From an uncultured Erysipelotrichaceae bacterium (GTDB lineage: Bacteria; Bacillota_I; Bacilli_A; RFN20; CAG-826): a stretch of DNA of 32,579 nt. Below the pieces are notes generated by a model that was not told the origin of the DNA, made no database searches, and was given only the letters and a program-made list of their open reading frames with translations. Position numbers and translations under genes: made by a program. Below, piece after piece: positions 7,207 through 31,909 of this stretch. The stretch is from NCBI GenBank assembly GCA_900315885.1, contig ONAT01000004.1:1-32579 (forward strand), given 5' to 3'. Numbering within the stretch: the first letter of the stretch is position 1; each line of letters opens with the position of its first letter.

Positions 7207-7229
7207 TATTTTGAAAAGAGGTAAGGAAC

Positions 7230-7781
7230 ATGAAAGGGTTAGTTATTGTCGGAGATAAATTTGAAGATGTGGAATTTGTTGCACCAATTGATGTTTTAAA
7301 AAGACATGGTGATGAAATTGTTGTAGCAAGTGTTATGCACAGATTAGAAGTTAAATCTGCAAGAGGAATTGTAATGAAAACAGATACAGTTCTTGAAGAT
7401 GTCAATTTAGATGATTTTGATTTCTTATTTATACCAGGAGGACCAGGAGCGTTTCAAATTCTTGTTAATATGAAAGAAGTCGAAAAAGTAATACTTTATT
7501 TTGCAAATAAGGATAAATTAGTGGCTTCGATATGCGCTGCTCCAATGCTAGTGGGAAGACTTGGACTATTTAAAGACTTAAATTATACAGTTTATCCTGG
7601 ATTTGAGAGCGAAATTGTCGGAGGATTTTACCAAAAAGATAAAGGTGTTGTGTGCGATAAAAACTTTATTACAGGAAAATCGATGTTTTACGCGATTGAA
7701 TTAGGATTAGAAATTGTAAAGTATTTCTATGGAGAAAAGGATAAAATAAGTTTACTTGAGCAATTAAAAGGCAATGAATAA
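7230..7781 (+). CDS. DJ-1/PfpI family protein
   Basis: Cytosolic protein of 183 aa with the DJ-1/ThiJ fold: the start is GLVIVGDKFEDVEF with the conserved Glu15, then FLFIPGGPGAF, then the nucleophile elbow ASICAAP with Cys102. The C-terminal TGKSMFYAIELGLEIV matches the helix that follows the fold's last strand. Family members act as protein or nucleotide deglycases, chaperones or redox sensors; the sequence does not decide between these. It is transcribed alone, with its own promoter and a strong terminator, and has an AGAGGTAAGGA ribosome binding site. The length is normal and the gene looks intact. Confidence 0.88.
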   Translation: MKGLVIVGDKFEDVEFVAPIDVLKRHGDEIVVASVMHRLEVKSARGIVMKTDTVLEDVNLDDFDFLFIPGGPGAFQILVNMKEVEKVILYFANKDKLVASICAAPMLVGRLGLFKDLNYTVYPGFESEIVGGFYQKDKGVVCDKNFITGKSMFYAIELGLEIVKYFYGEKDKISLLEQLKGNE

Positions 7782-12342: not shown

Positions 12343-13818
12343 ATGAAACATTTTGCTCTTGCTGGTAACCCAAACTGTGGTAAAACAACATTATTTAACT
12401 CTTTAACAGGTTCTACCGCACACGTTGGTAACTGGCCAGGTGTTACAGTTGATAAGAGACAAGGTACTTATAAGAAATTAAAAGAACCTATCGACATTGT
12501 TGACTTACCTGGTATTTATTCTTTATCACCTTATACTTCAGAAGAAGTTATTTCTCGTAATTTCATTCTTGATGAAAAACCTGATTGTATTATTAATATT
12601 ATTGATGCAACCAACCTTGAACGTAATTTATACTTAACAACTCAATTGTTAGAAATAGATGTTCCAATGGTCGTTGCTCTTAACATGATGGATGAAGTCG
12701 ATAAGAGTGGAGATAAAATTGATGTTGAGGCTCTCCAAAAGAAATTAGGAGTCCCTGTTGTTGAAATATCTGCTTTAAAAGAAAGAAATCTTGATAAGTT
12801 GATGGTTGAAGCATATAAGGCATCATTTAAGAAAAGAGAAGGAACAACAATTATCGAAAATCGTGATTTGAAACATCTTATCGGAGATGTAAGAATTGCT
12901 TTTGAAGGTAAAAAAGTTGAAAACCCATTATTCCATGCTGTAAAACTTGTTGAATTAGATGAACTTGAAACAAAACAACACGAAGATTTAGTTCCAATGG
13001 TCAATCAATTCAAAGACACATTCAGTGATGACACATTTGGTGATGACTTTGAAGCTTTAATTGCTGATGCTCGTTATAAATATATTTCTAAGAACTTTGC
13101 TCCAGTTCTTACAAGAAAAGAAGCAGGAAGCACAAAAGTAACTAAGTCAGATAAGATCGATAAGGTCTTAACAAATAAATGGGCTGGTATCCCAATCTTC
13201 TTATTAATCTTATTTGTCGTATTCCACTTAACATTCTCAGAAGATTTATTCTATTTGAATGCTCTTGGTGCATTTGGTGAAGATGGAATTGTTTCATTTG
13301 CAGGTACTGCATTTGAAGGATTGTTCGCTAATGGTGGTATTAACTCGCCGGGCGTTATCCTAGCAAACTTCCTCAATACAATTACAGGAATGATTAATGA
13401 TTTATTCCGTGACTGGTTGAGCGGAGCGACCCCATGGGTACAAGCATTTATATGTGATGGTGTCCTTGAAGGTCTATTTGCTGTTCTAGGTTTCTTGCCA
13501 CAAATTCTATGTCTATTCTTATTCTTCTCAATTCTTGAAGATTCTGGTTATATGGCTCGTGTTGCCTTCATTCTTGATAGAATCTTCCGTAAATTCGGTT
13601 TGTCTGGACGCGCGTTTATGCCTATGATTATGGGCTTTGGATGTTCAGTGCCAGCAATGATCAACACTCGTACTCTAGCAGATGATAAAGAAAAGGTTGC
13701 AACTATTAGAGTTATTCCTTTCTTCTCATGTGGAGCTAAATTACCTATTTTAACCGCTATCGCTGGGGGGCATCGTATCTTACTTTGGAGTTTCCAATGT
13801 CGATTTAATCACATTTAG
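12343..13818 (+). pseudogene. feoB: Ferrous iron transporter FeoB, N-terminal part (frameshifted)
   Basis: Encodes the cytosolic G-domain and first membrane half of the Fe(II) transporter. G1 is GNPNCGKTT (residues 8-16), G3 DLPG, G4 NMMD and G5 SALK. A helical GDI-like region follows, then membrane segments with the first gate motif (GFGCSVPAM) and FFSCGAKLPI. The frame then hits six G (13765-13770) and goes wrong: with five G it would continue as IAGGIVSYFGVSNVDLITFSMYVLGM into the next frame. As written it ends in an unrelated tail after 491 residues, without the second gate. The joined product would be about 753 aa, normal for FeoB. A sequence error, a mutation or phase variation are all possible. 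Confidence 0.9.
13765..13770 (+). repeat. G6 homopolymer at the feoB frameshift
   Basis: Run of six G in an AT-rich gene, exactly where the two feoB frames part. Removing one G restores a single continuous reading frame. Confidence 0.85.
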
Positions 13819-13819
13819 T

Positions 13820-14605
13820 ATGTATGTCTTAGGTATGGTAACAGCAATCGTAGCTGTAATTGTTATGAGAAATACTACAATGCGTGGTGAAGTTCCGCCA
13901 TTCATTATGGAATTACCTGCTTACCACTTACCAAAATTTAGAGCTTTGATGATCCACTTATGGGATAAGACAAAACACTTTGTTAAGAAGGCTTTCACAA
14001 TCATCTTAGCTTCCACAATTCTTATTTGGGCATTATCTCACTTCACATGGAGTTGGGAATTCTTACCTGAAGATACCGAAATGTCACAATCAATATTGGC
14101 TTCAATCGGTCAATTAATTCAACCTTTATTCACACCATTAGGCTTTGGTTCACAATTAACTAAAGGTGTCGGATGGGTATTCGCAGTTGCAGCAATTACT
14201 GGTTTAATTGCAAAAGAAAATGTTATCGCAACATTCGGAACATTAGCAGTCGCTATTGTTGCTGGCTTCGTTGCTCCTGAAGAAGGAACTGAAGCAATTG
14301 AAGGTTTAGCAGCAGTTGAAGCTATGATTAAAGCTACAGGAATTACAGTTCCAGGCTTACTATCATTCATCGCCTTCAATATGACAACTATTCCATGTTT
14401 CGCAGCTTGTGCAACAGCAAAAGCTGAATTACCTGAAGGTAAATTCAAATCAACAATTGCCTTCTGGTTAATCACATCATTCATCGTTTCAATGGCTATT
14501 TACATGATTGGAACATGGTGGTGGACATGCTTCATCTTCATCGCTGTAGTAGCAGCCGCTATCGTATTGATTAGACTCTACAACAACAAAAAAATGATCA
14601 AGTAG
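13820..14605 (+). pseudogene. feoB: Ferrous iron transporter FeoB, C-terminal part (frameshifted)
   Basis: Continuation of FeoB after the shift at 13765-13770. It holds the second membrane half: the cytosolic loop MRGEVPPFIMELPAYHLP, several membrane helices, and the second gate with TTIPCFAACATAKAEL. The true reading frame extends back from its first ATG to the G-run, so 13820 is not a real gene start and no good ribosome binding site precedes it. If both frames were translated independently the transporter would lack an intact core, so iron uptake through Feo depends on the frame being restored. The sequence is otherwise well conserved, with no other lesion, which suggests a recent change or a sequencing error. 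Confidence 0.9.
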
Positions 14606-15404: not shown

Positions 15405-16136
15405 ATGGCAAAAGATAGTAGTGGTTCAGTCGCGGTTGTTGAACAAGAAATTGAAACAACTCAAAAAATAGTAACTAAAAGTGAGCAAGAAGAAGAGATA
15501 GTAATTAAAGGTGGAAAAGCGTATGCTTTCTTTAAACGTGCATTTGATATTGTATCATCCGGGCTTGTTATTCTTGTTTTCTCTTGGTTATTAATAATAC
15601 TTGCATTATTAGTAAAATTAACATCTAAAGGACCAGTTTTATTTAAAGATGAACGTGTTGGATTGCATGGCAAGAAAATTAAAGTTTACAAATTCCGTTC
15701 AATGTATATAGATGCTGAGACAAATGTTGAAAAATATTTGACACCAGAACAAATAGAACAATGGAATACAGAAAGAAAAATTGACAAGGACCCACGAATT
15801 ACACCAATTGGCCGATTCACAAGAAAGACATCCCTTGATGAATTGCCTCAGTTATTCAATATTTTCCTTGGAAGTTTAAGTGTTGTTGGTCCACGTCCTG
15901 TAAAACAATTTGAGTTGGATGAAAACTATACTCCATACCAAAAAGAAAAATTATTACAAGTAAAACCAGGCCTTACTGGATACTGGCAAGTATATGGTAG
16001 ATCCAATGTTGATTATGCGTCTGGGCAACGTCAAAAAGAAGAATTGGCGTATTTACCAAAAAGAAGTTGCTTATTTGATTTAAAACTACTATTTTTAACT
16101 ATTCCAGCGGTTCTCAAACATAGAGGAGCTAAGTAA
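15405..16136 (+). CDS. Initiating sugar-phosphate transferase (polyprenyl-phosphate)
   Basis: Enzyme of 243 aa that moves a sugar-1-phosphate from a UDP-sugar to undecaprenyl phosphate, the first step of repeat-unit assembly at the inner face of the membrane. After a hydrophilic Glu/Thr-rich extension of about 40 residues comes one hydrophobic segment (about 48-70) and the small monotopic catalytic domain: FKDERVG, KFRSM, RKTSLDELPQLFN with the catalytic Asp-Glu, SVVGPRP and PGLTGYWQV. It is the short form, without the extra membrane helices of WbaP or WcaJ. The sugar cannot be read from the sequence. It leads the cluster behind AAGGAG, with the next gene one base away. Confidence 0.9.
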   Translation: MAKDSSGSVAVVEQEIETTQKIVTKSEQEEEIVIKGGKAYAFFKRAFDIVSSGLVILVFSWLLIILALLVKLTSKGPVLFKDERVGLHGKKIKVYKFRSMYIDAETNVEKYLTPEQIEQWNTERKIDKDPRITPIGRFTRKTSLDELPQLFNIFLGSLSVVGPRPVKQFELDENYTPYQKEKLLQVKPGLTGYWQVYGRSNVDYASGQRQKEELAYLPKRSCLFDLKLLFLTIPAVLKHRGAK

Positions 16137-16137
16137 T

Positions 16138-17253
16138 ATGGCAGTTATTCGTGTAGCACAAATACTCGGCCACGCAAACGCAGGTGGAGTAGAATCAATT
16201 ATAATGAACCTCTATAAAAACATTGACCGAGAACAAGTACAATTTGACTTTTTTGTAGAAAATACTTGCCCTATTATAGATCGTGAAGTTATTGAAAAAT
16301 TAGGTGGCAGAGTTGTATTCATTCCTAAATACACACATATTTTTAAGTACATGAGAACGCTTAAAAAATTATTTAAGGAAGGCAATTATGATATCGTTCA
16401 TTCAAATTTAAATGCATTAAGTATTTTTCCTTTATGGGCTGCTAAAAAAGCTGGCATAAAAATTAGAATTGCACATTCACATTCAACCTCAAACAAGAAA
16501 GAATGGAAGAAAACTATTATAAAAAATATGTTGAGAACTTTTTCGTGTGTCTTTCCAACACATCTTTTTGCCTGTTCGGAATTATCTGCAAAATGGCTTT
16601 TTGGAAAGAAAGCATGGAATTCAGGTAAAGTCATGATAGTTAATAATGCAGTTGATTTAGAAAAATTTAAAATAGACAATGAACTTAGAACTTCAATTCG
16701 TAAAGAATATGGTATTGAAGATAAACTTGTTATAGGAAACATTGGAAGATTTATGGCACAAAAGAACCACGAATTTTTAATAGATATTTTTAATGAAGTA
16801 GTTAAGATTCATAGTGATACAAAATTACTTTTAATTGGGGATGGACCATTAGAAGAAAAGATAGTAGAAAAAGTAAAAAAACTAAAACTAAATGATAAAG
16901 TTCTCTTCTTAGGTTTACAAAAATGCCCAGAAAAGTTTTATCAAGCAATGGATGCCTTTTTATTGCCTAGTTTATATGAAGGTTTACCTGTTGTTGGTAT
17001 TGAAGCACAAGTTAATGGGCTCAATTGTTACTTCTCTGACACTGTTACTCGTGAAGTAAAAGTGAATGAAAATGTTAAATTTTTACCTTTGAATAAAAAT
17101 CCTGAATTATGGGCTAAATCTATAGTTGATGATAGTAAAAATCCAATTAACCGTGAAATTGGATATCAAAATATGTGTCATACCCATTATAACATCGTAA
17201 ATGAAGCAGAAAAACTTCTAGCTAAATATAAAGAATTAGTGAAAGCAAAATAA
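16138..17253 (+). CDS. GT4-family glycosyltransferase
   Basis: Cytosolic or membrane-associated retaining glycosyltransferase of 371 aa with a GT-B fold. The N-terminal lobe shows the acceptor-side loop GHANAGGVESII and the IRIAHSHS stretch. The C-terminal lobe has IGNIGRFMAQKN, LLIGDGPLEEKI, and the donor-binding PSLYEGLPVVGIEAQ with its Glu pair seven residues apart. It resembles EpsF-like enzymes of capsule clusters, and is clearly paralogous to the gene at 21991 (shared IAHSHS, ACS-SA-KW-FG and N-A-DL-K stretches). Donor and acceptor are unknown. The ribosome binding site GAGGAG lies in the end of the transferase gene. Confidence 0.88.
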   Translation: MAVIRVAQILGHANAGGVESIIMNLYKNIDREQVQFDFFVENTCPIIDREVIEKLGGRVVFIPKYTHIFKYMRTLKKLFKEGNYDIVHSNLNALSIFPLWAAKKAGIKIRIAHSHSTSNKKEWKKTIIKNMLRTFSCVFPTHLFACSELSAKWLFGKKAWNSGKVMIVNNAVDLEKFKIDNELRTSIRKEYGIEDKLVIGNIGRFMAQKNHEFLIDIFNEVVKIHSDTKLLLIGDGPLEEKIVEKVKKLKLNDKVLFLGLQKCPEKFYQAMDAFLLPSLYEGLPVVGIEAQVNGLNCYFSDTVTREVKVNENVKFLPLNKNPELWAKSIVDDSKNPINREIGYQNMCHTHYNIVNEAEKLLAKYKELVKAK

Positions 17254-17296: not shown

Positions 17297-18385
17297 ATGG
17301 AAAAAATTAATGTTGTGATATGTGTTCCTACTTTGAGTCTTGGTGGAGCAGAAACAATGTCAACTCAATTGGCGCAATATGTCGACACAAACAAATTTAA
17401 TGTTCACTTTATTGTCAACCACTCTAAGGTTGAAAATAGAAATTATTTTGCTTTGACATCAAACGAAAACATACATCTATATTTTTTAGATGAGAATAAA
17501 GGTATTTCCGTTCGTAGTATTGTAAAAATGTATAAACTTTTAAAAAAGATTAAGCCAGATATCATTCATACACACTTGCATAGTTACCCATATGTAATGC
17601 TTTACGCTATTAACCATAAAGTTAAGATTCTTCATACCATTCACAATATGCCAGAATTTGAATCAAAAAAATCTGGTCAAAAAATTTTGCGTTTCCTTTT
17701 TAAACACAAATATGCTTACCCTGTTGGCATTTCTAATGTTATTTCAACACAAACAGATGTTTTTTATAAGCTTAAAGATACAGTGACAATTTATAATCCT
17801 GTTAATGTTGAAAAGTTCAATAAGGTTGGCACAAAAGATAGTAATGTTTTTACATTTATCTCAACTGGAAGAATGTCTAAACAAAAGAATCAAAAATTAT
17901 TAATCAGTGCATTTGCCAAAGTTTCTTCTAAATATAAAAATGTTCGTCTTCTTATTGCAGGAGATGGAGTCTTAAAAGATGAATTACTTGCACAAGTAAA
18001 AGAATTAAATCTTTCCAATGTGACTTTTTTAGGAAACATCAATAATGTTGAAGATTACTATGCAATTTCAGATGCATTTATTTTGTCCTCCATTTATGAA
18101 GGATTACCGATGACTATTTTAGAAGCTATGGCAGCACATTTGCCAATCATTTCCACAGATGTTGGTGGAGTTAAAGACATTGTCACGGATAATGGGTTAC
18201 TAACTACATCCGAAAATGAAGATGAATTAGTCGATGCTATGTGCAAACTTGTCACAGATCGAAAATTATGTGATGCACTTGGCGAAAAATCATTCAAAAA
18301 TGTTCAACAATTTGATATTTCAGTAATCACTAAAAAATATGAAGACTTGTATTGTAAGTACGCAAAGAAGAAGAAGGTGAAATGA
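17297..18385 (+). CDS. GT4-family glycosyltransferase
   Basis: GT-B glycosyltransferase of 362 aa. Diagnostic stretches are PTLSLGGAETMSTQLA near the N-terminus, DIIHTHLHSY, HTIHNMPE, then FISTGRMSKQKNQKLL, LLIAGDGVLKDEL, and the donor site SSIYEGLPMTILEAMA with the EX7E glutamates, followed by STDVGGVKDIV. It adds one sugar of the repeat unit on its lipid carrier; the donor cannot be told. It is less like the other two GT4 genes here than they are like each other. Its stop overlaps the polymerase start (ATGATGA), so the two are translationally coupled. Confidence 0.88.
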   Translation: MEKINVVICVPTLSLGGAETMSTQLAQYVDTNKFNVHFIVNHSKVENRNYFALTSNENIHLYFLDENKGISVRSIVKMYKLLKKIKPDIIHTHLHSYPYVMLYAINHKVKILHTIHNMPEFESKKSGQKILRFLFKHKYAYPVGISNVISTQTDVFYKLKDTVTIYNPVNVEKFNKVGTKDSNVFTFISTGRMSKQKNQKLLISAFAKVSSKYKNVRLLIAGDGVLKDELLAQVKELNLSNVTFLGNINNVEDYYAISDAFILSSIYEGLPMTILEAMAAHLPIISTDVGGVKDIVTDNGLLTTSENEDELVDAMCKLVTDRKLCDALGEKSFKNVQQFDISVITKKYEDLYCKYAKKKKVK

Positions 18386-19725
18386 TGAAAAAAACCATTT
18401 GGCGTTGGGCTTTTTTAACATTACTGCTTGTTCTTTATACGTTTTGCAAGTTTAAAGAAATTCTTAGTGTTAATGCATTGAATGTTCTTGCAGTAGTAAT
18501 GGCGCTTTATATTTTAACATTCCCTTTTGAAGAAAAAATATATTGCTTGTTTATGTTTATTCCTTTCTACCTGTATGTTTATATAAAAGGATTTGCGTTT
18601 TACAATGTAATCGTTATTTTTGTGTTTTTTGAATATATTTTAAGAATGAAAAAAATATCCACCACAAGCGTGATTATGGTAATTGTTATGTTGGCTTGCG
18701 AATTATTTTGGCAAGTCTATAATCACCAGTCAATATATAGTTATATCATAAAATGGTTACTTGCTGTGTTTGTTTCAATAAACTTAATGACTAATAAAGA
18801 AATTAAACTAGATAAATGTTTTGCATCATATGTATTCGTTTTGGGAGTAGCACTTATGGGAGCTTTCACAATAATGCAATATGGATCATTTAATGTCGAT
18901 GGTACTTTACGTGAAAAATATGCTGGTGGTCTAGGTAGTCTAGATCAAAATACGTTTTCGTTGTATTGTTTATTAGGATTCATTGTGGGAATGAATCTAA
19001 TTTTAAATAAAGATGAAAGAATAAAAACATTTGTTAATAAACCAGTATTTTTTGTTTCACTAGCTGTGTTTTCTGTAATTTGTGCAGTTGGCGGGGCTTT
19101 AATGGTTTCAAAAACTTACTTTTTAGTTTTAGTATTTTGGGCTATTTTACTTGTTATTACTAACTTACATAAACCACAAAAAGCAATTACTTATACTTTA
19201 GTTTTATGTGTTGGATTGGTTTTGATGTTTGCTTTACCACAGACACGTGAATTGGTAAATAGTGTATTGCGTCGTTTCTTTGAAAGTAGCAATATTTCAG
19301 AATTAACTACTGGCCGTTTTGATATTTTAAAGAAATATGGTGTAGCGTTAATAGAAAATCCATTAAATTTATTTATTGGTGCAGGATTATTTACCTATAA
19401 TTTATATTTCAATATTGATATGATTTCCGTTAATACAGGTCAACCATTAATTGCACATAATATGACTTTAGAAATGATTTGTGGATATGGCATTTTAGGA
19501 TTCTGTTTATTGTTCTTTATCTACTATCGTATTTTTAGAAAGAGGACACATGTTAAACATTTCACTAATAGAAATAGATTTATACCATTAATAATTTTCA
19601 TTATATTTTCACAATCTATAGCGATTTATCGTGAAGATGTTACCCACTTTGTATTATTACTTCTCCTTTTGGTAGCAACACCAAGAATTTTAAGAAAAGA
19701 GGATGATATTGTATGCAAGAATTAG
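18382..19725 (+). CDS. O-antigen ligase/polymerase-like membrane protein (probable Wzy)
   Basis: Hydrophobic protein of 447 aa with about eleven membrane segments and a long extracytoplasmic loop near the C-terminal third, as in Wzy polymerases and WaaL-like ligases. The loop region holds TTGRFDILKKYGVALIENPL and GAGLFTYN, in line with the Wzy_C pattern of R-x(n)-G near the large loop, then HNMTLEMICGYGILG. With a flippase and a chain-length protein in the same cluster, a polymerase joining repeat units outside the membrane is the best reading. Sequence similarity in this family is weak, so the call rests on topology, these short motifs and context. Two adjacent ATG codons at 18382 and 18385 are both possible starts. 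Confidence 0.8.
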   Translation: MMKKTIWRWAFLTLLLVLYTFCKFKEILSVNALNVLAVVMALYILTFPFEEKIYCLFMFIPFYLYVYIKGFAFYNVIVIFVFFEYILRMKKISTTSVIMVIVMLACELFWQVYNHQSIYSYIIKWLLAVFVSINLMTNKEIKLDKCFASYVFVLGVALMGAFTIMQYGSFNVDGTLREKYAGGLGSLDQNTFSLYCLLGFIVGMNLILNKDERIKTFVNKPVFFVSLAVFSVICAVGGALMVSKTYFLVLVFWAILLVITNLHKPQKAITYTLVLCVGLVLMFALPQTRELVNSVLRRFFESSNISELTTGRFDILKKYGVALIENPLNLFIGAGLFTYNLYFNIDMISVNTGQPLIAHNMTLEMICGYGILGFCLLFFIYYRIFRKRTHVKHFTNRNRFIPLIIFIIFSQSIAIYREDVTHFVLLLLLLVATPRILRKEDDIVCKN

Positions 19726-21986
19726 ATTTAAAAGGTATGCAACAAATCGAAATGACTCTTATGCGTGAGTTGGATGAAATTTGTCGTAAAAATGATATCA
19801 AATACTCTATTATGTATGGTTCACTCATTGGTGCGGTTCGTCATAAAGGTTTTATACCATGGGATGATGATATCGATGTTGTTTTATTAAGAAAAGACTA
19901 TGAAAAGTTAATTTCAATTTTAGAAAAGAATTGCCCAGAAGATCGCTTTATTCAAAATATAAGCACGGATAGTCATTTTGAATTTGGCATTTCACGATAT
20001 TGTATGAAAAATACATATTGTTTTGCTCCAGAAAGAAAAAAGTTAAAAAGTAAAAAATATATATACATTGATATTTTCCCGCTAGATAATTTGCCTGATG
20101 ATGATAAATTAGCAATGAAACAAATTGCGGAAATGAAAAAAATAAAAGAATCAATCTACTATAAAATGCATTATTGCTATCCTCATCGCACAATTTTCGG
20201 ATATATAAAAACATTTTTTCAACGTGTAATTCGTAAAATTATTCCATTGAAACGAATGACAAACAAATTAACATCAACTGCGATGAAATATAATGATGTT
20301 CCATCGAAGCGAGTAATTAACTTCTTTGGAATATATAGTCATGAAAAAGAAACATTTAATCGAGAGTGGTTTGAAAATCTTGAAGATTTTGAATATGAAA
20401 ATGAAAAATTTCAAGGCACAAAAAATTATGATGACATTTTAACGCAACTTTATGGTGATTATATGACACCACCTCCAGTAACTAAGCAAGTTAAACGTCA
20501 TAATTGTTATGTGTTATCGCCAGAAGATGACATACCTAAAAAGTATAGTATTAAAAGTAATTATTTCTTTAATTTAATAGTTTCTGTCCTTGAATCAATA
20601 ATTCCTTTAATCACAACTCCATTTATTGCACGAATTATTGGCCCAGATGGTACAGGTATCTATAGTTATACTTATTCGCTTATTACTATGTTTACTTTAG
20701 CTGGTGCCTTAGGATCTGCAACACATGCCCAACGGCAGATTGCGATGCATTCTAATGATAAAAAAGAGTATTCTAAAATATTCTACGAAATTTTTATCTT
20801 AAGACTAATCTTCCTTACCGTTTCATTTGTGGCTTTCTTGATTACTGTCTTAATTATGGATAGCTATATAGTATTTTTCTTGTTACAAATTCCTTATTTC
20901 TTAGCGGCTATATTTGATATATCGTGGCTCTATCAAGGCTTAGAAGATTTTAAGTATATAGCAGTAAAAAATTTAACTGTTAAAATATTAGGACTTGCTG
21001 CTATATTTGTTTTTGTTAAATCATTTGATGATTTGTGGCTATATGTCTTCATATTATCTTTATCAATATTCTTAGGACAAGCATCATTATGGATCCGTCT
21101 TAAGAGGTATATTGTTAAAGTTGACCGCAAAGAGATTAAATGGAAACGCCATTTAAATGAAGTTATTGTTTATTTTGTTCCTACAATTGCGTATCAGCTT
21201 TACTCATTAATTAATAAAGTAATTCTAGGTGCTTTATCAACTGAAGCAGAAACAGGTTATTATGAACACGCTCAAAAAATCATAAACTTGTGTGTAAGTT
21301 TCTTGTCAGCATATAACATCGTTATACGTTCTAGAATGTCTATGCTTTTTGCAAAACAAGATAAAAAAGAAATTGACACTAAAATCCATCAATCTTTAGG
21401 CTTTGTAATTATGCTTGGCTTGCCGATGACTTTAGGAATCATGGGTGTTGCTTCAGACTTAATTCCATGGTATCTAGGCGATGAATATCTAAAAGTAAGT
21501 AAAGTATTGTTTATATTTGCTCCAATTATTTTGATAATAAGCTTACGAACATGTATTGGCGCAATAATATTTACTCCATTTGGATTGCAAAAAAAATCAA
21601 ATCTAGCGCAGATTATTGCTGCTGTCATCAATTGTGCTTCTACAGCAATATTAATTCCAAAACTAGCATCAATTGGTGCGGTAATATCATCAATGATGGC
21701 GGAGACATTTATTCTTATTTATTATGTAGTTTATTGTCATAGGAAAAAGTATATTAGTTTTACAAAGACATTAAAGATAATATACAAGTACTTAATTGCG
21801 GGAGCAATTATGTTTGTGACAGTATATTTCTTCGGTGTATATGTGACATCAATTAAAGGCATTGTTAAAACTATAACTCAAGTTTTAATTGGTGCAGGCG
21901 TGTATGGTATTATATTATTGATTTTAAGAGACAAATTTGTCTTAGATAATATATCAAAAATTCTTAAGATAAGAAAGAGAGGATGA
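19713..21986 (+). CDS. LicD-family phosphotransferase fused to a Wzx-type flippase
   Basis: Single uninterrupted frame of 757 aa joining two proteins. Residues 1 to about 275 are LicD-like: GSLIGAVRHKGF and PWDDDIDV (residues 36-57) are the family's catalytic nucleotidyltransferase-fold motif, and LYGDYMTPPP ends the domain. LicD transfers phosphocholine from CDP-choline to glycans in pneumococci and Haemophilus. From about residue 285 to the end is a polysaccharide flippase (MATE-like) with about twelve to fourteen helices, starting IVSVLESIIPLITTPFIARIIG and containing GPDGTGIYSYTYS and GLED. No ribosome binding site or ATG lies at the joint. Given the phosphonate genes downstream, I infer that the LicD part adds a CMP-activated phosphonate to the repeat unit before the same protein exports it. 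Confidence 0.88.
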   Translation: MQELDLKGMQQIEMTLMRELDEICRKNDIKYSIMYGSLIGAVRHKGFIPWDDDIDVVLLRKDYEKLISILEKNCPEDRFIQNISTDSHFEFGISRYCMKNTYCFAPERKKLKSKKYIYIDIFPLDNLPDDDKLAMKQIAEMKKIKESIYYKMHYCYPHRTIFGYIKTFFQRVIRKIIPLKRMTNKLTSTAMKYNDVPSKRVINFFGIYSHEKETFNREWFENLEDFEYENEKFQGTKNYDDILTQLYGDYMTPPPVTKQVKRHNCYVLSPEDDIPKKYSIKSNYFFNLIVSVLESIIPLITTPFIARIIGPDGTGIYSYTYSLITMFTLAGALGSATHAQRQIAMHSNDKKEYSKIFYEIFILRLIFLTVSFVAFLITVLIMDSYIVFFLLQIPYFLAAIFDISWLYQGLEDFKYIAVKNLTVKILGLAAIFVFVKSFDDLWLYVFILSLSIFLGQASLWIRLKRYIVKVDRKEIKWKRHLNEVIVYFVPTIAYQLYSLINKVILGALSTEAETGYYEHAQKIINLCVSFLSAYNIVIRSRMSMLFAKQDKKEIDTKIHQSLGFVIMLGLPMTLGIMGVASDLIPWYLGDEYLKVSKVLFIFAPIILIISLRTCIGAIIFTPFGLQKKSNLAQIIAAVINCASTAILIPKLASIGAVISSMMAETFILIYYVVYCHRKKYISFTKTLKIIYKYLIAGAIMFVTVYFFGVYVTSIKGIVKTITQVLIGAGVYGIILLILRDKFVLDNISKILKIRKRG

Positions 21987-21990
21987 CAGC

Positions 21991-23118
21991 ATGAAAAAAA
22001 TTAAATTATTACTATTTGTTGATCGTTTAGGACATGGTGGCATTCAAACTCTACTATTAAATATCTTGGATAAAATTGATAAAGAAAAGTTTGAAATTTC
22101 CTTTCTAAATTTTGACTTTGGTGTCAAATACGAATTAGAGGATAAAGTTGTGAAAGCAGGAGCTAAACTTTATAAAGTTCCACATCCTCAAAAACATCCA
22201 TTCAAATGTATGAAAGAAACAAAACAATTCTTTAAGACTCATCATTTTGATATTGTACATTGCCACTCATCTAGTAAGGCTGCTGTTATACTAAAATACG
22301 CTAAAAAGTATAAAGTACCAGTTAGAATCGCTCATTCACATGCAGATTCTTTCCAAAGCAAAAACTTCTTATTAAAACTTGTAGGGAATATGTTAATGAT
22401 TCCGTTAAATCGAAATGCAACACATTATTGTGCTTGCTCTCAAAGTGCAGGAAAATGGATGTTTGGGCATTGGTATTCTAAGAAGATACCTATTACCATC
22501 ATTAAAAATGCGATTGATTTAAATAAGTATAAATATAATGAAAAAACCGATTTAGAATTACGTGCTTTATACAAAATTGATAAATCGACAAAGGTTTTTG
22601 GACATGTGGGAAGATTTATGAGAGTTAAAAACCAAACATTTTTAATTAATGCATTTTATGAGTATCTAAAAATTAATAATAATGCTAAATTAATATTGAT
22701 TGGAATTGGAACTTTGAAAGAAGAAGCAGAGAATCTTGTTAAGGAATTACATATTGAAGATAAAGTGATTTTTACAGGATACCAAAGCGATACAGCCAAA
22801 TTCTATTCACTATTTGATGTATTTGTTCTCCCAAGTTTAGTTGAAGGCTTGCCATTTGTAGGGGTGGAGGCGCAAGCATCTGGCCTAAAATGTTTATTCT
22901 CTGATCACGTTTCAAAAGAAATTGCTTTGATTGAAGAAAATTGCAAATTTATTCCTTTAGTAACTGATGAATGGGTTAAAACTTTTGACAAAGTAGAGAT
23001 TATTAAAAATCGTGAATTAACTTATCTCAAATTAAAAGAAGAAGGATTTGATTTAAGTGATGAAATTAAAAAACTCGAAGAATATTATCAAAACAATTTA
23101 AAGGAGGTTAGTTTATGA
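21991..23118 (+). CDS. GT4-family glycosyltransferase
   Basis: GT-B glycosyltransferase of 375 aa, a paralogue of the gene at 16138. It has RLGHGGIQTLLLNIL in the N-lobe, VRIAHSHADS, then GHVGRFMRVKNQTFL, LILIGIGTLKEEAENL and the donor site PSLVEGLPFVGVEAQ. It is expected to add a sugar during repeat-unit assembly on the inner membrane face; specificity is unknown. An AGAGAGGATG site precedes the start, four bases after the LicD-flippase gene. Its stop overlaps the start of the next gene by four bases (ATGA). Confidence 0.88.
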   Translation: MKKIKLLLFVDRLGHGGIQTLLLNILDKIDKEKFEISFLNFDFGVKYELEDKVVKAGAKLYKVPHPQKHPFKCMKETKQFFKTHHFDIVHCHSSSKAAVILKYAKKYKVPVRIAHSHADSFQSKNFLLKLVGNMLMIPLNRNATHYCACSQSAGKWMFGHWYSKKIPITIIKNAIDLNKYKYNEKTDLELRALYKIDKSTKVFGHVGRFMRVKNQTFLINAFYEYLKINNNAKLILIGIGTLKEEAENLVKELHIEDKVIFTGYQSDTAKFYSLFDVFVLPSLVEGLPFVGVEAQASGLKCLFSDHVSKEIALIEENCKFIPLVTDEWVKTFDKVEIIKNRELTYLKLKEEGFDLSDEIKKLEEYYQNNLKEVSL

Positions 23119-23870
23119 AATATACTGTAAAGTATTTTTATGAAAATTTTCCAGAATGGAAAAGAAAGAAAGATTCAGTGTTAGTTAGATACTTTTTTAG
23201 ACCAATTTCATTTGTGTTTGCATCACTATTTGCAAGTTTAGGATTTACCGCAAATGGAGTATCAATGTTTTCCACATTTGTGGCTTTCTTAGCATCAGCA
23301 ATGTTCGTTATTCCTAATCATATTTGTCATATTGTTGGGGCGTGTTTAGTTGCTGTTTGGATGATTCTAGATTGTGTAGATGGAAATATTGCTCGTAGCG
23401 TTAAAAAGCAAGCATTTGGAGAATTCGTTGATAGCTGTAGTAGTTATTGCTTAATCGCAAGTTTATTTATTTGCGTTGGTATTGCTGCTTATAATTCAGG
23501 CGGTGTTTTGTTTAGTGTGGGTGATGCAACAATAGTTATTATTGGAGCACTTGCTTCAATTGCAGACCCTCTATCAAGACTTTTATATCAAAAGTATTTA
23601 TCATGTGCGAAGACATATGAAAATGATACTAATACATCACAAACAGAAAAAGGAAAGCTTCGTAAACTACAAGATCGTATTGATAAAGAAATAGGACTAA
23701 ATGGTATTTTCATTCCAGGCATTATAGTTTGTGCAATATTTAATTGGCTAGATATATTTGCGATTGTCTATTGTTGCTATTATGTTGGTGAATTACTAGT
23801 GTCTTTGCTCTATTTTAATTACAAAACAATTAAATATAACAAATCACATCAAGTAGAAGAAAACAAATAA
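23115..23870 (+). CDS. CDP-alcohol phosphotransferase-like membrane protein
   Basis: Membrane protein of 251 aa with about six helices and the CDP-alcohol phosphatidyltransferase motif, DCVDGNIARSVKKQAFGEFVD (near residues 91-111). The family uses a CDP-linked alcohol and moves the phospho-group to another alcohol, with four Asp residues binding two metals. The first three are visible, but the fourth position, three residues after GEFVD, is Ser in SCSSY. There are also seven instead of eight residues between AR and G. It may be a divergent enzyme, perhaps for a CDP-phosphonate made by the genes downstream, or an inactive member. Context, not motif, supports the phosphonate link. A strong AAGGAGG precedes its start. 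Confidence 0.8.
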   Translation: MKYTVKYFYENFPEWKRKKDSVLVRYFFRPISFVFASLFASLGFTANGVSMFSTFVAFLASAMFVIPNHICHIVGACLVAVWMILDCVDGNIARSVKKQAFGEFVDSCSSYCLIASLFICVGIAAYNSGGVLFSVGDATIVIIGALASIADPLSRLLYQKYLSCAKTYENDTNTSQTEKGKLRKLQDRIDKEIGLNGIFIPGIIVCAIFNWLDIFAIVYCCYYVGELLVSLLYFNYKTIKYNKSHQVEENK

Positions 23871-23885
23871 GAAAGAGGTAATTAT

Positions 23886-24569
23886 ATGAATAAAAAGTAT
23901 GAAAACGAATTAACATTAAAAGTGTTTTTATTGGGTGTTAAGAGAAAATTTATGACAATACTATACTTCATTATCTGCTTTACAGTAATTGGTGCAGTAT
24001 ATGGATCTACGATTGGTAAACCATCCTATAAAACAACTGGTAGCCTAGGTACTAAAAATTCACTGCAAGTCACAAGCTATTCAACATTATTAGACTATGC
24101 AAAAGAATGTACCTATCTTGTATATGATGATTTGAAAGCACATGGTATCACTCATAATGATGGAACAGAAATCAGAAAATCAGAAATCGATAGTGGCTTA
24201 GGCTTACCATCAGTGCCAAGTGTTGTTAAGAGTTTAACAGTTGAATTCTCTTATACAAATAAAGACAAAACTATTGTAAAAGATGTATTGAGTTCAATCT
24301 TAAATAATACTGTTACATATGCGAATGAACACACATCAACTTATATTTTATTAGAATTAAAAGTTGCAATTGAGCCTTCTGAACCTGTTGCAACCTCAAG
24401 TTTAACTAAAAAGATAATTGTATTCACCGTATGTGGTGCAATATTAGGAACTTTGATTGCGGTGTTTAAAGAATGGAAAAATTACACAATTAATGATGCA
24501 AGTGATCTTGCAGAGATTAATACAAATGTCTTTGAAATTGAATATAAAGGAGGCAAACGTCATGAATAA
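23886..24569 (+). CDS. Chain-length determinant protein (Wzz/CpsC-like)
   Basis: Membrane protein of 227 aa with two helices, near residues 20-40 and 178-198, flanking an extracytoplasmic domain of about 135 residues. This is the layout of polysaccharide co-polymerases of Gram-positive bacteria (CpsC, YveK). SEPVATSSLTKK just before the second helix resembles the usual Pro-rich P-x-x-P-x-x-P motif, with few prolines. It likely sets polymer length together with the polymerase, and its short C-terminal cytosolic end would normally activate the BY-kinase encoded next. Its end overlaps that gene by eight bases, but the partner lacks the kinase motifs. Confidence 0.78.
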   Translation: MNKKYENELTLKVFLLGVKRKFMTILYFIICFTVIGAVYGSTIGKPSYKTTGSLGTKNSLQVTSYSTLLDYAKECTYLVYDDLKAHGITHNDGTEIRKSEIDSGLGLPSVPSVVKSLTVEFSYTNKDKTIVKDVLSSILNNTVTYANEHTSTYILLELKVAIEPSEPVATSSLTKKIIVFTVCGAILGTLIAVFKEWKNYTINDASDLAEINTNVFEIEYKGGKRHE

Positions 24570-25161
24570 GAGTGATAAAAAATTAATACAAGCTTTTGAA
24601 AATTTGACTGAAAACAAAAAACTATATGACGGAATTGCTAAATTACAAAACGATATTGCTATGTATAGTGATGGCAAAAATAAAATGATTGCGATTACGG
24701 CACCTAATAATCATCTTCATAGTGTATTGCTTGCAAAAAGTCTAGCAACTTTCTTCCAAAATCAAGATGAAAAGGTATTGCTACTTAATATGAATATGGA
24801 TGAAAATCTAACGGAATATGATGATTTGCTTGATGCAAAAGTAGTGGACTTAAAAAATGTCTCATTTGAAGAAAACAGTTTAACAATTCATACCCTAGAA
24901 AAATCTAATAAAAGTGCAGAGGTTGTGTTTTCTCCTTTATTTAAAGAGTACATTGAAAAAGCAAATAAAACATTTGACCATATTATCATAATTGTTCCAC
25001 CAGTAAATAGTCATTGCGATATCTTAGCAATAAGAGATTATATTGACTCTAGTACAGTTGTGGCTGTAAAAGATGAAACTTTATTAGTGGACATTCTCAA
25101 AGCAAATGACTTTATAAAAGAAAATAACATTCCTTTCAAAGGTATTACTCTACTTAAGTAG
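24562..25161 (+). CDS. Degenerate BY-kinase-like (CpsD-like) protein
   Basis: Cytosolic protein of 199 aa with the outline of a CpsD/Wzc-type tyrosine kinase, but without its catalytic signs. Where a BY-kinase has Walker A (GEGKS/T) this has ITAPNNHLHSVLLAKSLA, with no P-loop Gly-Lys-Ser/Thr. Where Walker A' has DxDxR this has LLLNMNMDEN, and where Walker B has DTPP this has FDHIIIIVPPV. No Tyr-rich C-terminal tail is seen; it ends FKGITLLK. It is probably a pseudokinase that still binds the chain-length protein. The start at 24562 is chosen for its AAAGGAGG (24546-24553); upstream in-frame codons belong to the preceding gene. Neighbours are the chain-length gene and rfbC. Confidence 0.75.
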   Translation: MNKSDKKLIQAFENLTENKKLYDGIAKLQNDIAMYSDGKNKMIAITAPNNHLHSVLLAKSLATFFQNQDEKVLLLNMNMDENLTEYDDLLDAKVVDLKNVSFEENSLTIHTLEKSNKSAEVVFSPLFKEYIEKANKTFDHIIIIVPPVNSHCDILAIRDYIDSSTVVAVKDETLLVDILKANDFIKENNIPFKGITLLK

Positions 25162-26612: not shown

Positions 26613-27926
26613 ATGAAAAAAGTTTACATTGCGATGAGCGCTGATATCATTCATTCAGGACATATCAGTATAATTAATGAAGGAGCAAAACTCGGCGAAG
26701 TTTATATTGGTTTATTAACCGATGAAGCGATTGCTTCGTATAAGAGACTCCCTATTTTAGATTACGAATCACGTAAAAAGATTTTTGAAAACATTAAAGG
26801 TGTTAAAGAAGTTATTCCACAAAAAACTTTAGATTACACTGATAATTTAATGGCTTTAAAACCAGATTATGTTGTACATGGCGATGATTGGCGCAGTGGT
26901 GTACAAAGGAATGTACGTCAAAAAGTTATCGACACTTTAAAAATATGGGGTGGAGAATTAATTGAAATTCCATATACTAAAGATGTTTCTTGCACGGGTT
27001 TAGAAAAAACAGTTCGTGAATTACAAAATACACCAGACAATCGTCGCGCTAAATTAAAAAGAATGTTAACAGTCAAACCATATGTAACTGTTATGGAAGC
27101 AAGTAATGGTTTAACTGGACTTTTAGTGGAAAATACTAAAGTTGTTGATGAAGAAAAAGGTACCGCTAACGAATTTGATTGTATGTGGGTGTCTTCCTTA
27201 TGCGACTCATCATTTAAAGGAAAACCTGATATTGAATTAGTAGACTTAACATCAAGATTAAATACAATTGAACAAATTATGGAAGTTACTACTAAACCAA
27301 TTATTTTAGATGGTGATACAGGCGGTAAAGTCGAACACTTCACTTACAACGTTAAAACTCTCGAAAGATTAGGAGTTTCTGCTATTATCATTGAAGATAA
27401 AACAGGCTTAAAACAAAATAGTCTTTTTGGTACAGATGCAAAACAAGTGTTAGATGATCCACACGAATTTGCTCACAAAATTAAAGCAGGAAAATCAGCA
27501 CAAGTGACAAAAGATTTCTTAATCTTTGCTCGTATTGAGGCTTTAATTGCAGGGCGTGGGGTAGAAGAAGCAATGAAACGCGCAAAAATATATATTGAAG
27601 AAGGTGGCGCGGATGGTATTGTTATTCACTCTAAAGAAAAAGATGGTTCAGAAATTAAAGAATTCTTACGTCAATTCAGAGAATATTCTAAAGATATTCC
27701 AGTCGTTTTAATTCCAACATCTTATAATCAATTCACTGAAGAAGAATTACATGCTTGGGGTGGAACAATTATTATTTACGCAAATCACTTCTTAAGAAGT
27801 GCTTATCCAGCTATGAAAAAATGTGCTGAAAGTATTCTTACACATCATAGATCACTAGAAGCTTCTAATGATTACTGCATTTCTATTAAAGAAGTTTTAG
27901 CACTTATTCCAGGGGCAAAGCAATAG
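26613..27926 (+). CDS. pepM: Nucleotidyltransferase-phosphoenolpyruvate mutase fusion
   Basis: Two-domain enzyme of 437 aa. Residues 1 to about 140 are a HxGH-type cytidylyltransferase domain (SADIIHSGH, His14 and His17). Residues from about 155 are a PEP mutase of the isocitrate-lyase superfamily with the diagnostic [10 protein letters not shown] (residues 261-270, matching EDK-x5-NS) and [12 protein letters not shown] before it. The mutase converts phosphoenolpyruvate to phosphonopyruvate, forming the C-P bond and so opening nearly every natural phosphonate pathway. The fused domain suggests activation of a phosphonate with CTP. It is followed by the decarboxylase and the dehydrogenase fusion, one transcription unit with a strong AAAGGAG at its start. 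Confidence 0.95.
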
Positions 27927-27937
27927 GAGGTCTTAGT

Positions 27938-29050
27938 ATGATTAATACTGAAAATTTTTACAATTATTTAATTGAAAATCATATTGATTTCTTCGCTGGC
28001 GTACCAGATTCATTATTAGCTAATTTTTGTGCTTGTGTAAAAGATAAAACAAGTGATGAAAAAAACATTATTACCGCTAACGAAGGTAATGCTGTAGCAA
28101 TGTGTGCAGGTTATCATATGTCAACAGGCAAAATTGGTTTAGTTTATATGCAAAATTCTGGTGAAGGTAATGCAGTTAATCCATTAGTTTCTTTGGCAGA
28201 TGAAGATGTTTACTCAATTCCAATGTTATTAGTTATTGGATGGCGTGGAGAACCAGGACAACATGATGAACCTCAACACGTAAAACAAGGTAAAATTACT
28301 CTCGGTTTATTAGAAACCATGGGAATTGCTTATGAAATTTTAGAAGATGACTATGAAAAGCAAGTTAAAAAAGCAATAGATTATATGAGAAAAGAAAGTA
28401 AGCCTTATGCTTTAGTAATTAGAAAAGGTTTATTTAGTGAATATAAACTCAGTAAAGAAATATCAAAATATGAGCTTACTCGTGAAGATGCTTTAAAAAC
28501 AATTATTGATAATCTTAGTAGTGATGACATTATTGTTTCCACAACAGGTAAAACATCGCGTGAGATATTTGAAATTAGAGAAGCAAATAAACAAGGACAT
28601 AGTAATGATTTCTTGACTGTTGGATCAATGGGTCATACAGCTTCGATTGCTTATGGCGTAGCTATTGGCACTGATAAAAATGTTTGGTGCATTGATGGTG
28701 ATGGCTCATTCATTATGCATATGGGTAGTTTAGGCGTTATTGGTTCTAAAATTCCGCATAATTTTAAATATATTCTTAATGATAATGGTGCACATGAATC
28801 AGTTGGAGGACAACCAACATGTTCACGTTCACTTGATATTCCAGCAATATTAAAGGCTTGCGGATTTAAGAAAGTCGTAGTAGCGGAAACTAAAGAAGAA
28901 ATTGAATCCGCGATTAAAATTATGAGAAATGAAGACAAAATTGCCCTTGTTTTACATACAAAACAAGGATCTAGAGATAATTTGGGCCGTCCAACAACGA
29001 CACCACAAGAGAACAAAAAAGCTCTAATGCACAAATTAGGAGTGTTATAA
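27938..29050 (+). CDS. ppd: Phosphonopyruvate decarboxylase
   Basis: Thiamine diphosphate enzyme of 370 aa, the family's usual short form, that decarboxylates phosphonopyruvate to phosphonoacetaldehyde and so pulls the unfavourable mutase reaction forward. N-terminal markers are GVPDSLL and TANEGNAVAMCAGYH with the cofactor-activating Glu, then MQNSGEGNAVNPL. The cofactor-binding GDGSFIMHMGSLG ends about 25 residues later in NDNGAHES, the expected spacing. WRGEPGQHDEPQH is typical of this enzyme rather than of sulfopyruvate decarboxylase. It lies 11 bases after the mutase and one base before the next gene. All key residues are present. Confidence 0.95.
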   Translation: MINTENFYNYLIENHIDFFAGVPDSLLANFCACVKDKTSDEKNIITANEGNAVAMCAGYHMSTGKIGLVYMQNSGEGNAVNPLVSLADEDVYSIPMLLVIGWRGEPGQHDEPQHVKQGKITLGLLETMGIAYEILEDDYEKQVKKAIDYMRKESKPYALVIRKGLFSEYKLSKEISKYELTREDALKTIIDNLSSDDIIVSTTGKTSREIFEIREANKQGHSNDFLTVGSMGHTASIAYGVAIGTDKNVWCIDGDGSFIMHMGSLGVIGSKIPHNFKYILNDNGAHESVGGQPTCSRSLDIPAILKACGFKKVVVAETKEEIESAIKIMRNEDKIALVLHTKQGSRDNLGRPTTTPQENKKALMHKLGVL

Positions 29051-29051
29051 A

Positions 29052-30875
29052 ATGAAAGCGTTGATTTTTAATTCTGGAATCGGAAAACGAATGGGAGAAA
29101 TGACAAAAAATTCTCCTAAATCGATGGTTAAATTATTAAATGGCGAGACTATCTTTGAACGTCAAATTCGCTTGTTAAGCGAATGTGGTATTAAAGATAT
29201 TGTAGTAACCACAGGACCATTTGAAGAACAATTAGTTGCAATATCTAAAAAAGAAGCTTATAAAGATATTAAATTTACGTTTGTTCATAACGATTTATAT
29301 GATAAGACAAATTACATATATTCTTGTTATCTAGCAAGAAAATACTTGAATGATGATTTTTTGACTCTCCATGGTGATTTAGTATTCAGCAAATCATTAT
29401 TACAATATGTTTTAGATTCTAAAGAAAAATCAACATGTCTAATTAATAAAGCTCTTCCTTTGCCAGATAAAGATTTTAAAGGAAGAATAACAGATGGAAG
29501 ACTAAGAGAAGTAAGCATTAGCATTTTTGGTGATGATTGCTTTACATTTCAACCTCTTTATAAACTTACAAAAAACGATATGGCTATTTGGGTGAAATCA
29601 ATTGAAGAGTTTGTTGTTCAAGGAAATACTGGTGTTTACGCTGAAAATGCTTTTAATGTAATTTCTGATAAATTAAATATTATTCCATTATCTTATGAAC
29701 ATTATTACATTAATGAAATTGATAATTTGGAAGATTACGAAAGAGTTACTAAAGACATTGAACAAATTGATTATGAAGAGCAAAATGTTGTTTTAGGTAG
29801 TGATAAATTAGAAGAAATTCTTAAAACATATAATTTGCACAATCCTTTAATTGTTGTGGCAGGCTTTTTAAAAGATTACATCTGCACATTAATGGAAAAA
29901 GCAAATGTTAAATATGCGATTTTCACAAATTTTTCAGCAAATCCACGCTATGAAAACGTTATAGACGCTATGAAAGTATTTAAAGAAAATGCTTGCGACT
30001 CCATCATTTCTTTAGGTGGAGGTAGCGCAATGGATGTTGCAAAATGCGTTAAGTTATTCTTGCCGATGAATGATAAAGAAGATTACTTGACTCAAAAACA
30101 TGTTTATATCAATTTAAAACATATTGCTATCCCAACAACTGCTGGTACAGGCAGTGAGTCTACAAGATTTATTGTATTTTATAAAGATGGTATTAAACAA
30201 TCTATTGCAGATGACATGGTTTTACCAGACGCTGCAATTTTAGAAAAAGATTTCTTAAAGTCTTTACCATTAAATCAAAAAACTGCGACAATGTTTGATG
30301 CTTTGTCACAAGCTATTGAGTCAATGTGGTCGGTTAATTCAACTCATAAAAGCACAGAATATTCTGAAAAAGCCATAAAATTAATATTAAAAAATTATCA
30401 AAAGTACTTAGCAAGTGATGAAAGTGTTATGCAAGATATGATGCTTGCTTCAAATTTAGCGGGTAAAGCTATTAATATTACTCAAACTACGGCAGCACAC
30501 GCTATGAGTTACAAAATTACCTCACATTTTGGCATTTCTCATGGACACGCGGTTGCTTTGGTTTTACCATTTGTGTGGAAATATTTGGATGATAACTACG
30601 ATAAAACATTTGATGTTCGTGGAAAAGAACATTTAAGAAAAGTGCTTAATAACATCAATGAATTATTTGGCTTTAAAAACACTAAAGAGTCAATAAATAA
30701 ATATGTTTCAATTATGCATGAGTTTAAAATGATAAATAAATTAGATTATGATGCACAATTGCTAGATGATTTTGCAAATTCTGTTAATCCGATTCGTTTA
30801 CGCAATTTCCCGGTTGCGTTAGATAAGGATACAATACAAAAAATTTATACAAAAATATTTAATGCAAAATATTAA
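29052..30875 (+). CDS. Nucleotidyltransferase fused to phosphonoacetaldehyde reductase (Fe-ADH)
   Basis: Bifunctional protein of 607 aa. Residues 1 to about 240 form a sugar-nucleotidyltransferase-like domain with the nucleotide loop SGIGKRMGEMTKNSPKSMV and LHGDLVF as the metal-binding acidic site, close to PntC and phosphocholine cytidylyltransferases. From about residue 260 it is an iron-dependent alcohol dehydrogenase: SLGGGSAMDVAKCV for NAD(P), IPTTAGTGSE, the metal ligands in FDALSQAIE, AAHAMSY and HGHAVAL. With the two preceding genes the dehydrogenase half should reduce phosphonoacetaldehyde to 2-hydroxyethylphosphonate. The transferase half should then make its CMP derivative (inference). 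No transaminase for aminoethylphosphonate is present in the window. Confidence 0.9.
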   Translation: MKALIFNSGIGKRMGEMTKNSPKSMVKLLNGETIFERQIRLLSECGIKDIVVTTGPFEEQLVAISKKEAYKDIKFTFVHNDLYDKTNYIYSCYLARKYLNDDFLTLHGDLVFSKSLLQYVLDSKEKSTCLINKALPLPDKDFKGRITDGRLREVSISIFGDDCFTFQPLYKLTKNDMAIWVKSIEEFVVQGNTGVYAENAFNVISDKLNIIPLSYEHYYINEIDNLEDYERVTKDIEQIDYEEQNVVLGSDKLEEILKTYNLHNPLIVVAGFLKDYICTLMEKANVKYAIFTNFSANPRYENVIDAMKVFKENACDSIISLGGGSAMDVAKCVKLFLPMNDKEDYLTQKHVYINLKHIAIPTTAGTGSESTRFIVFYKDGIKQSIADDMVLPDAAILEKDFLKSLPLNQKTATMFDALSQAIESMWSVNSTHKSTEYSEKAIKLILKNYQKYLASDESVMQDMMLASNLAGKAINITQTTAAHAMSYKITSHFGISHGHAVALVLPFVWKYLDDNYDKTFDVRGKEHLRKVLNNINELFGFKNTKESINKYVSIMHEFKMINKLDYDAQLLDDFANSVNPIRLRNFPVALDKDTIQKIYTKIFNAKY

Positions 30876-30903: not shown

Positions 30904-31909
30904 ATGGGAATGTTTAAAGATAAAATATTACTTGTTACTGGAGGTACTGGTTCATTTGGTCGTGCAGTGGTGGATAAATTTTTAACTACAGACTCGTGAT
31001 GAGCAAAAGCAAGATGATATGCGCCACGTATATCAAAGAAAATATCCAGAATATTACAACAAAATCAAATTTTATATTGGCGATGTGCGTGATTATGAAT
31101 CTATCGCAGCCTCATTCCGTGGAGTTGATTATGTTTTTCACGCCGCAGCTTTAAAACAAGTCCCATCTTGTGAATTTTACCCTATGGAAGCGGTAAAGAC
31201 TAATGTCATAGGATCTAATAACGTTATTAATGCTTGTGTTGCAAATCATGTTAAAAAAGCTATATTTTTATCAACTGATAAAGCTGCTTATCCTGTTAAT
31301 GCAATGGGTATGACTAAGGCTTTAATGGAAAAGAACGTTATTGCTAGATCACGTCAAATGCTAGAAAATGATCCGATTTTATGTTTAACAAGATATGGTA
31401 ATGTTATGGCTTCAAGAGGATCAGTTATTCCTTTATTCTTGAGTCAAATAAATGAAGGAAAACCATTAACTATCACTAATCCGAAAATGACTCGCTTTAT
31501 GATGAATTTAGATGAAGCTGTAGAGTTAGTGCTTTATGCTTTTGAACATGGTAAGCAAGGCGATTTATTTGTTAAAAAATCTCCTGCTGCAACTATTGAT
31601 ACTTTAGCGGATGCAATTCTTGATTTAAAGAATAGTTCAGTTGGTAAAACTATAATTGGTACAAGACATGGAGAAAAACAATATGAAGTATTGATTACTA
31701 GTGAAGAAATGGCACATGCTGAATCATTAGATGGTTTCTATTGCATTCATGCTGATAATAGAAATTTAAATTATGATAACTATTTCTCAAAAGGCAATAA
31801 AGAATTAGATATGATTCCATCTTATACATCCAGTAACACAACAATACTTAACAAAGAAGAATTAAAAACTCTTCTAAAAACTTTAGATTTGTTTAAAAAG
31901 GAAGACTAG
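30904..31909 (+). pseudogene. CapE/CapD-like nucleotide-sugar dehydratase-epimerase, frameshifted
   Basis: Gene broken near its start. From the ATG at 30904, behind AAAGGAG, the frame gives MFKDKILLVTGGTGSFG, the Rossmann Gly motif, and stops at TGA 30997-30999 after 31 residues. The other frame resumes with TRDEQKQDDMRHVY at about 30992 and runs intact to 31909. Family members have about seven further residues (like IKEIRIF) between these parts, so roughly 20 bases appear deleted. The rest shows IGDVRDYES, VDYVFHAAALKQVPSCEF, LSTDKA and a YP-x-NAMGMTK site; it resembles UDP-GlcNAc 4,6-dehydratase/5-epimerase CapE or CapD. With capF next door, it would start UDP-FucNAc synthesis, but the copy as read should be inactive. 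Confidence 0.85.

Follow-up and report, generated by a model that had tools for sequence, protein, structure and literature searches.

Introduction

The closest described counterpart of the protein analysed here is found in Streptococcus pneumoniae, where LicD1 and LicD2 decorate an undecaprenyl-linked unit that is exported by TacF, a 14-TM flippase of the MOP superfamily. There the three are separate proteins and the donor is CDP-choline. TacF exports teichoic acid only if it bears phosphocholine: R15 and R269 hold the diphosphate of the substrate, and R230 and R333 hold the phosphocholine phosphates (PMC13385700). Another related group is formed by the Pnt pathways, in which PEP mutase and a tailoring enzyme carry fused cytidylyltransferase domains. 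CMP activation has been published for 2-hydroxyethylphosphonate (HEP) by Fom1 and for AEP by PntC, and LicD-like phosphotransferases are mentioned in CMP-phosphonate gene neighbourhoods (PMC6697681). More distant are FKRP and fukutin, which belong to the same phosphotransferase fold family (6kak) and share the motif GSLLGAxRH..IPWDxDxD, but are eukaryotic Golgi ribitol-phosphate transferases with no flippase. Several CDP donors are used within the LicD/FKRP family.

Here we describe a gene in which a LicD domain and a flippase share one frame. Its locus resembles the Pnt pathways in the fusions of its cytidylyltransferase domains and in its CMP-phosphonate logic, but HEP is predicted here in place of AEP, on account of an iron-dependent alcohol dehydrogenase (Fe-ADH), and the transfer step is fused to the flippase.

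The fusion gene and its locus

The window, i.e. the whole stretch of DNA that was analysed (32,579 nucleotides from an uncultured Erysipelotrichaceae bacterium), contains a capsule/EPS locus that also holds a three-gene HEP operon (Table 1). The fusion is encoded by a single open frame of 757 codons.

Table 1. Features of the capsule/EPS locus, with positions in the window
Feature	Position	Strand	Evidence
Priming polyprenyl-phosphate sugar transferase	15405..16136	+	PF02397 E=1.5e-57
GT4 glycosyltransferase a	16138..17253	+	
GT4 glycosyltransferase b	17297..18385	+	
Wzy-like polymerase, 13-base overlap with fusion gene	18382..19725	+	PF04932
LicD-flippase fusion gene, 757 aa	19713..21986	+	one frame; Pfam LicD + Polysacc_synt; model pLDDT 90.5
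LicD half, residues 1-266, catalytic motif GSLIGAVRHKGFIPWDDDID kept	19713..20510	+	PF04991 1-227/227; invariant residues; hydropathy
Linker, residues 267-275 (VLSPEDDIP)	20511..20537	+	alignment with G002/G003 Wzx; pLDDT <50 at 272-276
Flippase half, residues 276-757, MOP superfamily, predicted 14-TM MurJ/TacF architecture	20538..21983	+	PF01943; TacF 9xzn; MurJ
GT4 glycosyltransferase c	21991..23118	+	
CDP-alcohol phosphatidyltransferase-like membrane enzyme	23115..23870	+	PF01066 E=4.3e-9; DGxxAR motif
Wzz-like chain-length protein	23886..24569	+	weak PF02706; homologous to Wzz-position genes of G002/G003
Wzd/Eps kinase-like protein	24562..25161	+	weak TIGR01007; synteny
Cytidylyltransferase (HxGH) fused to PEP mutase (EDKxxxxxNS)	26613..27926	+	TIGR02320 above cut-off; PF01467; motifs
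Phosphonopyruvate decarboxylase	27938..29050	+	TIGR03297 E=4e-136, above cut-off
NTP transferase (PntC/LicC-like fold family) fused to Fe-ADH, probable phosphonoacetaldehyde reductase	29052..30875	+	PF12804/PF00483 + PF00465; TIGR03405 best, below cut-off

The Pfam LicD model is matched with E=4.8e-45 at residues 24-248, and the domain scores 154.8 bits against a gathering score of 22.6, which places it in the family. In the other half Polysacc_synt is matched with E=2.2e-26 at residues 282-536 and, together with Polysacc_synt_3 and MurJ, the flippase models span residues 282-596. Two full-length Pfam domains in one frame are far beyond chance. All residues that are invariant among 20 LicDs (G36, G40, R43, H44, G46, I48, P49, W50, D51, D53, D55, D120 and F122) are present, as is the conserved metal/donor motif G-x3-G-x2-RH-x-G-x-IPWDDDxD. 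The LicD half contains no hydrophobic segment (hydropathy maximum 0.77) and the N terminus of the flippase half lies at the MurJ position, so the topology fits a cytosolic enzyme tethered to the flippase.

An AlphaFold2 model of the whole protein (35 rows), a prediction that had been proposed as a check, has a mean pLDDT of 90.5, the linker positions listed in Table 1 being the sole part below 50; its pTM is 0.70, i.e. the mutual orientation of the two halves is not fixed by the model. The LicD half matches FKRP (6kak). MurJ superposes on the modelled flippase half over its full 14-TM length (residues 274-750; Z up to 33, with residues 281-750 aligned over 440 residues at 3.0 A), and TacF (9xzn, E=3e-28) is the only sequence relative of this half in the PDB. 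According to the model, the second half is a complete 14-helix MOP flippase. The open frame, the complete Pfam domains and the model with its FKRP-like and MurJ-like halves thus bear out the original prediction that a full LicD domain and a full Wzx-type exporter are joined in one frame.

Three other genes of the window are broken. In feoB (12343-14605) a frameshift in a G6 run, at about 13768, interrupts the gene, and FeoB continues in the next frame; a protein encoded on the reverse strand (4963-7405) is divided between two frames, with the break at about 6301, and its homologue in the congener G003 spans both parts; in a UDP-GlcNAc 4,6-dehydratase/FnlA-like gene (30904-31909) a short deletion at about 30985 changes the frame. 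No further frameshifts were detected in the other homology-covered stretches of this genome (353 kb tested, 119 kb covered).

The junction

Two congeners, G002 and G003, have the same locus (priming transferase, GT4b-Wzy-Wzx-...-Wzz-Wzd) with a stand-alone wzx directly after wzy. Their Wzx proteins are 54% identical to the flippase half and have no LicD half; LicD and the CDP-alcohol transferase are absent from both loci, and PEP mutase, and with it the HEP operon, from both congeners. This arrangement suggests that licD was inserted between wzy and wzx. The congeneric Wzx proteins begin with MGKSDNLKSNY and MIKKTSDLGKNY, and the fusion junction reads ..DDIPKKYSIKSNY. Codon 274 of the fusion, located approximately at the start codon of the congeneric wzx, is ATA, and a run of five A residues (20538-20542) comes just after the linker.

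None of the candidate starts for a separate Wzx at the junction has a Shine-Dalgarno sequence (duplexes of -1.5 to -2.9 kcal/mol, random median -2.5), and no in-frame ATG is available there. The other starts of the locus, 15 out of 15, have duplexes of -4.2 to -11.8 kcal/mol (for Wzd, whose motif is evident, the scored position was 3 bases away from the start); for the wzx genes of the two congeners the values are -7.5 and -6.5 kcal/mol. Because a separate Wzx would have neither a ribosome-binding site nor an in-frame ATG, the join appears to be genuine. A settled fusion would be expected to have just such a junction, devoid of Wzx initiation signals, and to judge by its sequence the fusion is probably real.

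Distribution of the fusion

The same fusion, for which a search had been proposed, was sought with the whole protein in genomes of the genus (4), the family (224) and the order (279) and in samples of the class (395) and the phylum (392); these sets overlap and comprise about 740 distinct genomes, none of which has it. The notable flippase matches in relatives all start at about residue 250-282 of the fusion. A single-protein scan of genome contigs gave nothing either. A DNA pattern for the junction (LicD end plus Wzx start) found 10 licD-then-wzx neighbours in 84,980 species, among them Parvimonas, Clostridia, Lacticaseibacillus and Prevotella, all of them separate genes; the pattern matches only where the motifs are exact, TATGG stands at the end of LicD and the junction has a similar length, so that other fusions may escape it. 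The pattern has no match in viral contigs, and no phage match reaches 80% coverage. Two apparent full-length matches on plasmids are both separate genes: an L. plantarum plasmid carries a licD/wzx pair, and in Prevotella F0039 the two genes are in the opposite order. No published LicD-Wzx fusion was found in a literature search. The fusion is so far a singleton, built of two known parts.

A comparable arrangement exists in the same family. In three genomes of genus g27 (G148, G151, G152; proteins L021, L022, L025 of 893-904 aa) a GT4 glycosyltransferase takes the place of LicD, i.e. here too a cytosolic glycan enzyme is fused in one frame to the N terminus of a flippase. These proteins suggest that the family tolerates the fusion of a cytosolic enzyme to a flippase.

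The phosphonate operon and the candidate donor

The operon at 26613-30875 lies about 5 kb downstream of the fusion. Its PEP mutase and decarboxylase exceed their NCBIfam cut-offs, and the marks of phosphonyl tailoring (PEP mutase with EDKxxxxxNS, decarboxylase, cytidylyltransferase) are all present. The S. copri version of the reductase is annotated as phosphonoacetaldehyde reductase. Since the Fe-ADH is present and there is no transaminase among the genes seen with the operon, the gene content points to HEP, not AEP, as the product, and the capsule locus probably carries HEP. Choline kinase (LicA, PF01633), by which a Lic-1 phosphocholine system would be recognised, has no match in the genome (97% complete), which argues against choline as the LicD substrate. 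The expectation of a phosphonate rather than choline is therefore upheld by the operon and by the missing kinase. We note that the operon encodes two different nucleotidyltransferase domains, either of which may be the one that makes CMP-HEP.

The HEP operon was found in 12 of the 279 genomes of the order. In G050 and G274 a licD precedes the same cytidylyltransferase-PEP mutase gene by 17 and 36 bases, and in G144, where the order is wzx-licD-x-PEP mutase and all genes are separate, it lies two genes upstream. For 8 of the 11 PEP-mutase loci of relatives no LicD is present in the stretch seen, and the neighbour of PEP mutase in S. copri and G093 is instead a CDP-glycerol-type glycerophosphotransferase. 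The LicDs associated with PEP mutase do not form one clade in the tree, and the LicD of the fusion is a deep branch outside them. As the LicDs concerned are not one clade, the association with PEP mutase would have arisen repeatedly; in other words, LicD was probably recruited beside the HEP operon more than once. A phosphonate-specific LicD clade was rejected, as the label needs 4 changes on the tree, the same number as when labels are shuffled. Relatives of the cytidylyltransferase-PEP mutase, usually with homologues of the decarboxylase and the ADH/NTP-transferase, also occur in many viral contigs (L230-L255), and LicD is near them in L244, L245, L251 and L253.

The gene neighbourhood makes it most likely that CMP-HEP is the donor from which LicD passes HEP on to the lipid-linked repeat unit at the inner leaflet. 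That the donor would be a CMP-phosphonate, as had been proposed, is the natural reading of two cytidylyltransferase domains, by analogy with PntC and Fom1 (PMC6697681); this donor logic is already known from those enzymes, and its extension to the fusion is plausible. The CDP-alcohol phosphatidyltransferase-like enzyme is a possible second user of CMP-HEP.

TacF contact sites in the flippase half

A gatekeeper of the TacF type is expected to have positive residues at the four TacF sites. In the HMMER alignment R15 corresponds to S291, R269 to R541, R230 to K502 and R333 to I605, i.e. two of the four are lost, and flippases that have no licD next to them also commonly carry the kept residues R541, K502 and K522. 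Sensing of phosphate by way of the TacF arginines was rejected, as the R15 and R333 sites are not conserved.

Among other flippases, an arginine at the TacF R15 site was seen in 5 of 9 licD-adjacent proteins (L017, L089, L100, L102, L108; three lineages) versus 0 of 49 without licD within 1.3 kb, in a sample that is small and post hoc. In Parvimonas (L100, L102, L108) two licD genes are followed by a TacF-like flippase and then by a gene with an NTP-transferase domain, an order that resembles the pneumococcal choline locus.

Discussion

The account to which, taken as a whole, we incline on balance is that of a real, lineage-specific fusion in which LicD moves HEP from CMP-HEP onto the repeat unit before flipping. 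Going by the two congeners, licD would have been inserted into the capsule locus downstream of wzy and upstream of wzx, and an in-frame join to wzx would have formed at the former start codon, today an ATA without a ribosome-binding site. The resulting protein would be a cytosolic phosphotransferase tethered by about nine residues to the cytosolic N terminus of a MOP flippase. With CMP-HEP supplied by the downstream operon, LicD would attach HEP, at the inner leaflet, to a sugar in the repeat unit carried by undecaprenyl diphosphate, and the flippase half would turn the unit over for Wzy. The benefit may be that the two activities are held together, in equal amounts.

An assembly error could imitate such a gene if adjacent, slightly overlapping licD and wzx genes had been merged by one base near the A5 run. 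If this run were longer or shorter by one base, LicD would indeed reach a stop within a few codons and Wzx would have its own open frame, beginning with an ATG at 20527; the same 32 kb contain three other frame-breaking lesions, and licD-wzx neighbours elsewhere are as a rule separate genes. Nevertheless, an alternative start/stop pair of this kind arises fairly often by chance in AT-rich DNA (a rough estimate), the remaining homology-covered stretches of the genome show no additional frameshift, and no Wzx start at the junction has the Shine-Dalgarno signal that all the starts compared with it possess, which makes the artefact quite improbable. Relatives with separate genes and a frame-joining error had been named together as what would refute the original prediction; such relatives were found, but the error was not shown and the initiation signals argue against it. 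It is also conceivable that the fusion is true but that its LicD uses another CDP-activated alcohol (e.g. CDP-glycerol or CDP-ribitol), HEP going to the enzyme at 23115-23870 or elsewhere. The range of donors in the LicD/FKRP family together with the FKRP match, the deep branching of this LicD in a tree without a phosphonate-specific clade, and the CDP-glycerol-type transferase beside PEP mutase in relatives are in accordance with this; the CDP-alcohol transferase, moreover, is missing from the congeners' loci just as LicD is, so that its gain or loss went together with that of the rest. We consider this reading unlikely, as no other CDP-alcohol route is seen in the locus and as it is LicD, and not any close relative of the 23115-23870 enzyme, that other genomes repeatedly have next to the HEP operon.

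A stronger version of the preferred account would be a coupled machine in which, owing to the tethered LicD, a unit is flipped only once it has been decorated. TacF, the one sequence relative that the flippase half has in the PDB, does check the phosphocholine content of its substrate (PMC13385700), licD-licD-flippase runs exist in Parvimonas, and enzyme-flippase fusions recur in the family through the GT4-flippases of one genus. On the other hand, I605 and S291 stand where TacF has R333 and R15, the residues that are retained are not specific to licD-linked flippases, the orthologous flippases of the congeners lie in loci without LicD, and a tether alone creates no selectivity. We therefore regard conditional flipping as distinctly unlikely, and that one polypeptide adds the phosphonate and flips decorated units only, with LicD as a built-in checkpoint of the flippase, as very improbable. 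The suggestion that only marked units are flipped is left unsupported by the loss of the two arginines and by the 54%-identical orthologues, which stand alone with neither LicD nor PEP mutase. In summary, the data support a tethering of decoration to export rather than conditional flipping.

If confirmed, the fusion would show that the last modification of a lipid-linked glycan in the cytosol can be joined covalently, in nature, to the flipping step; in TacF the two are connected by recognition only. Any coupling of decoration and translocation could then be studied within one protein. The fusion would also mark LicD as a likely CMP-HEP transferase, a step left open by the work on the Pnt pathways.
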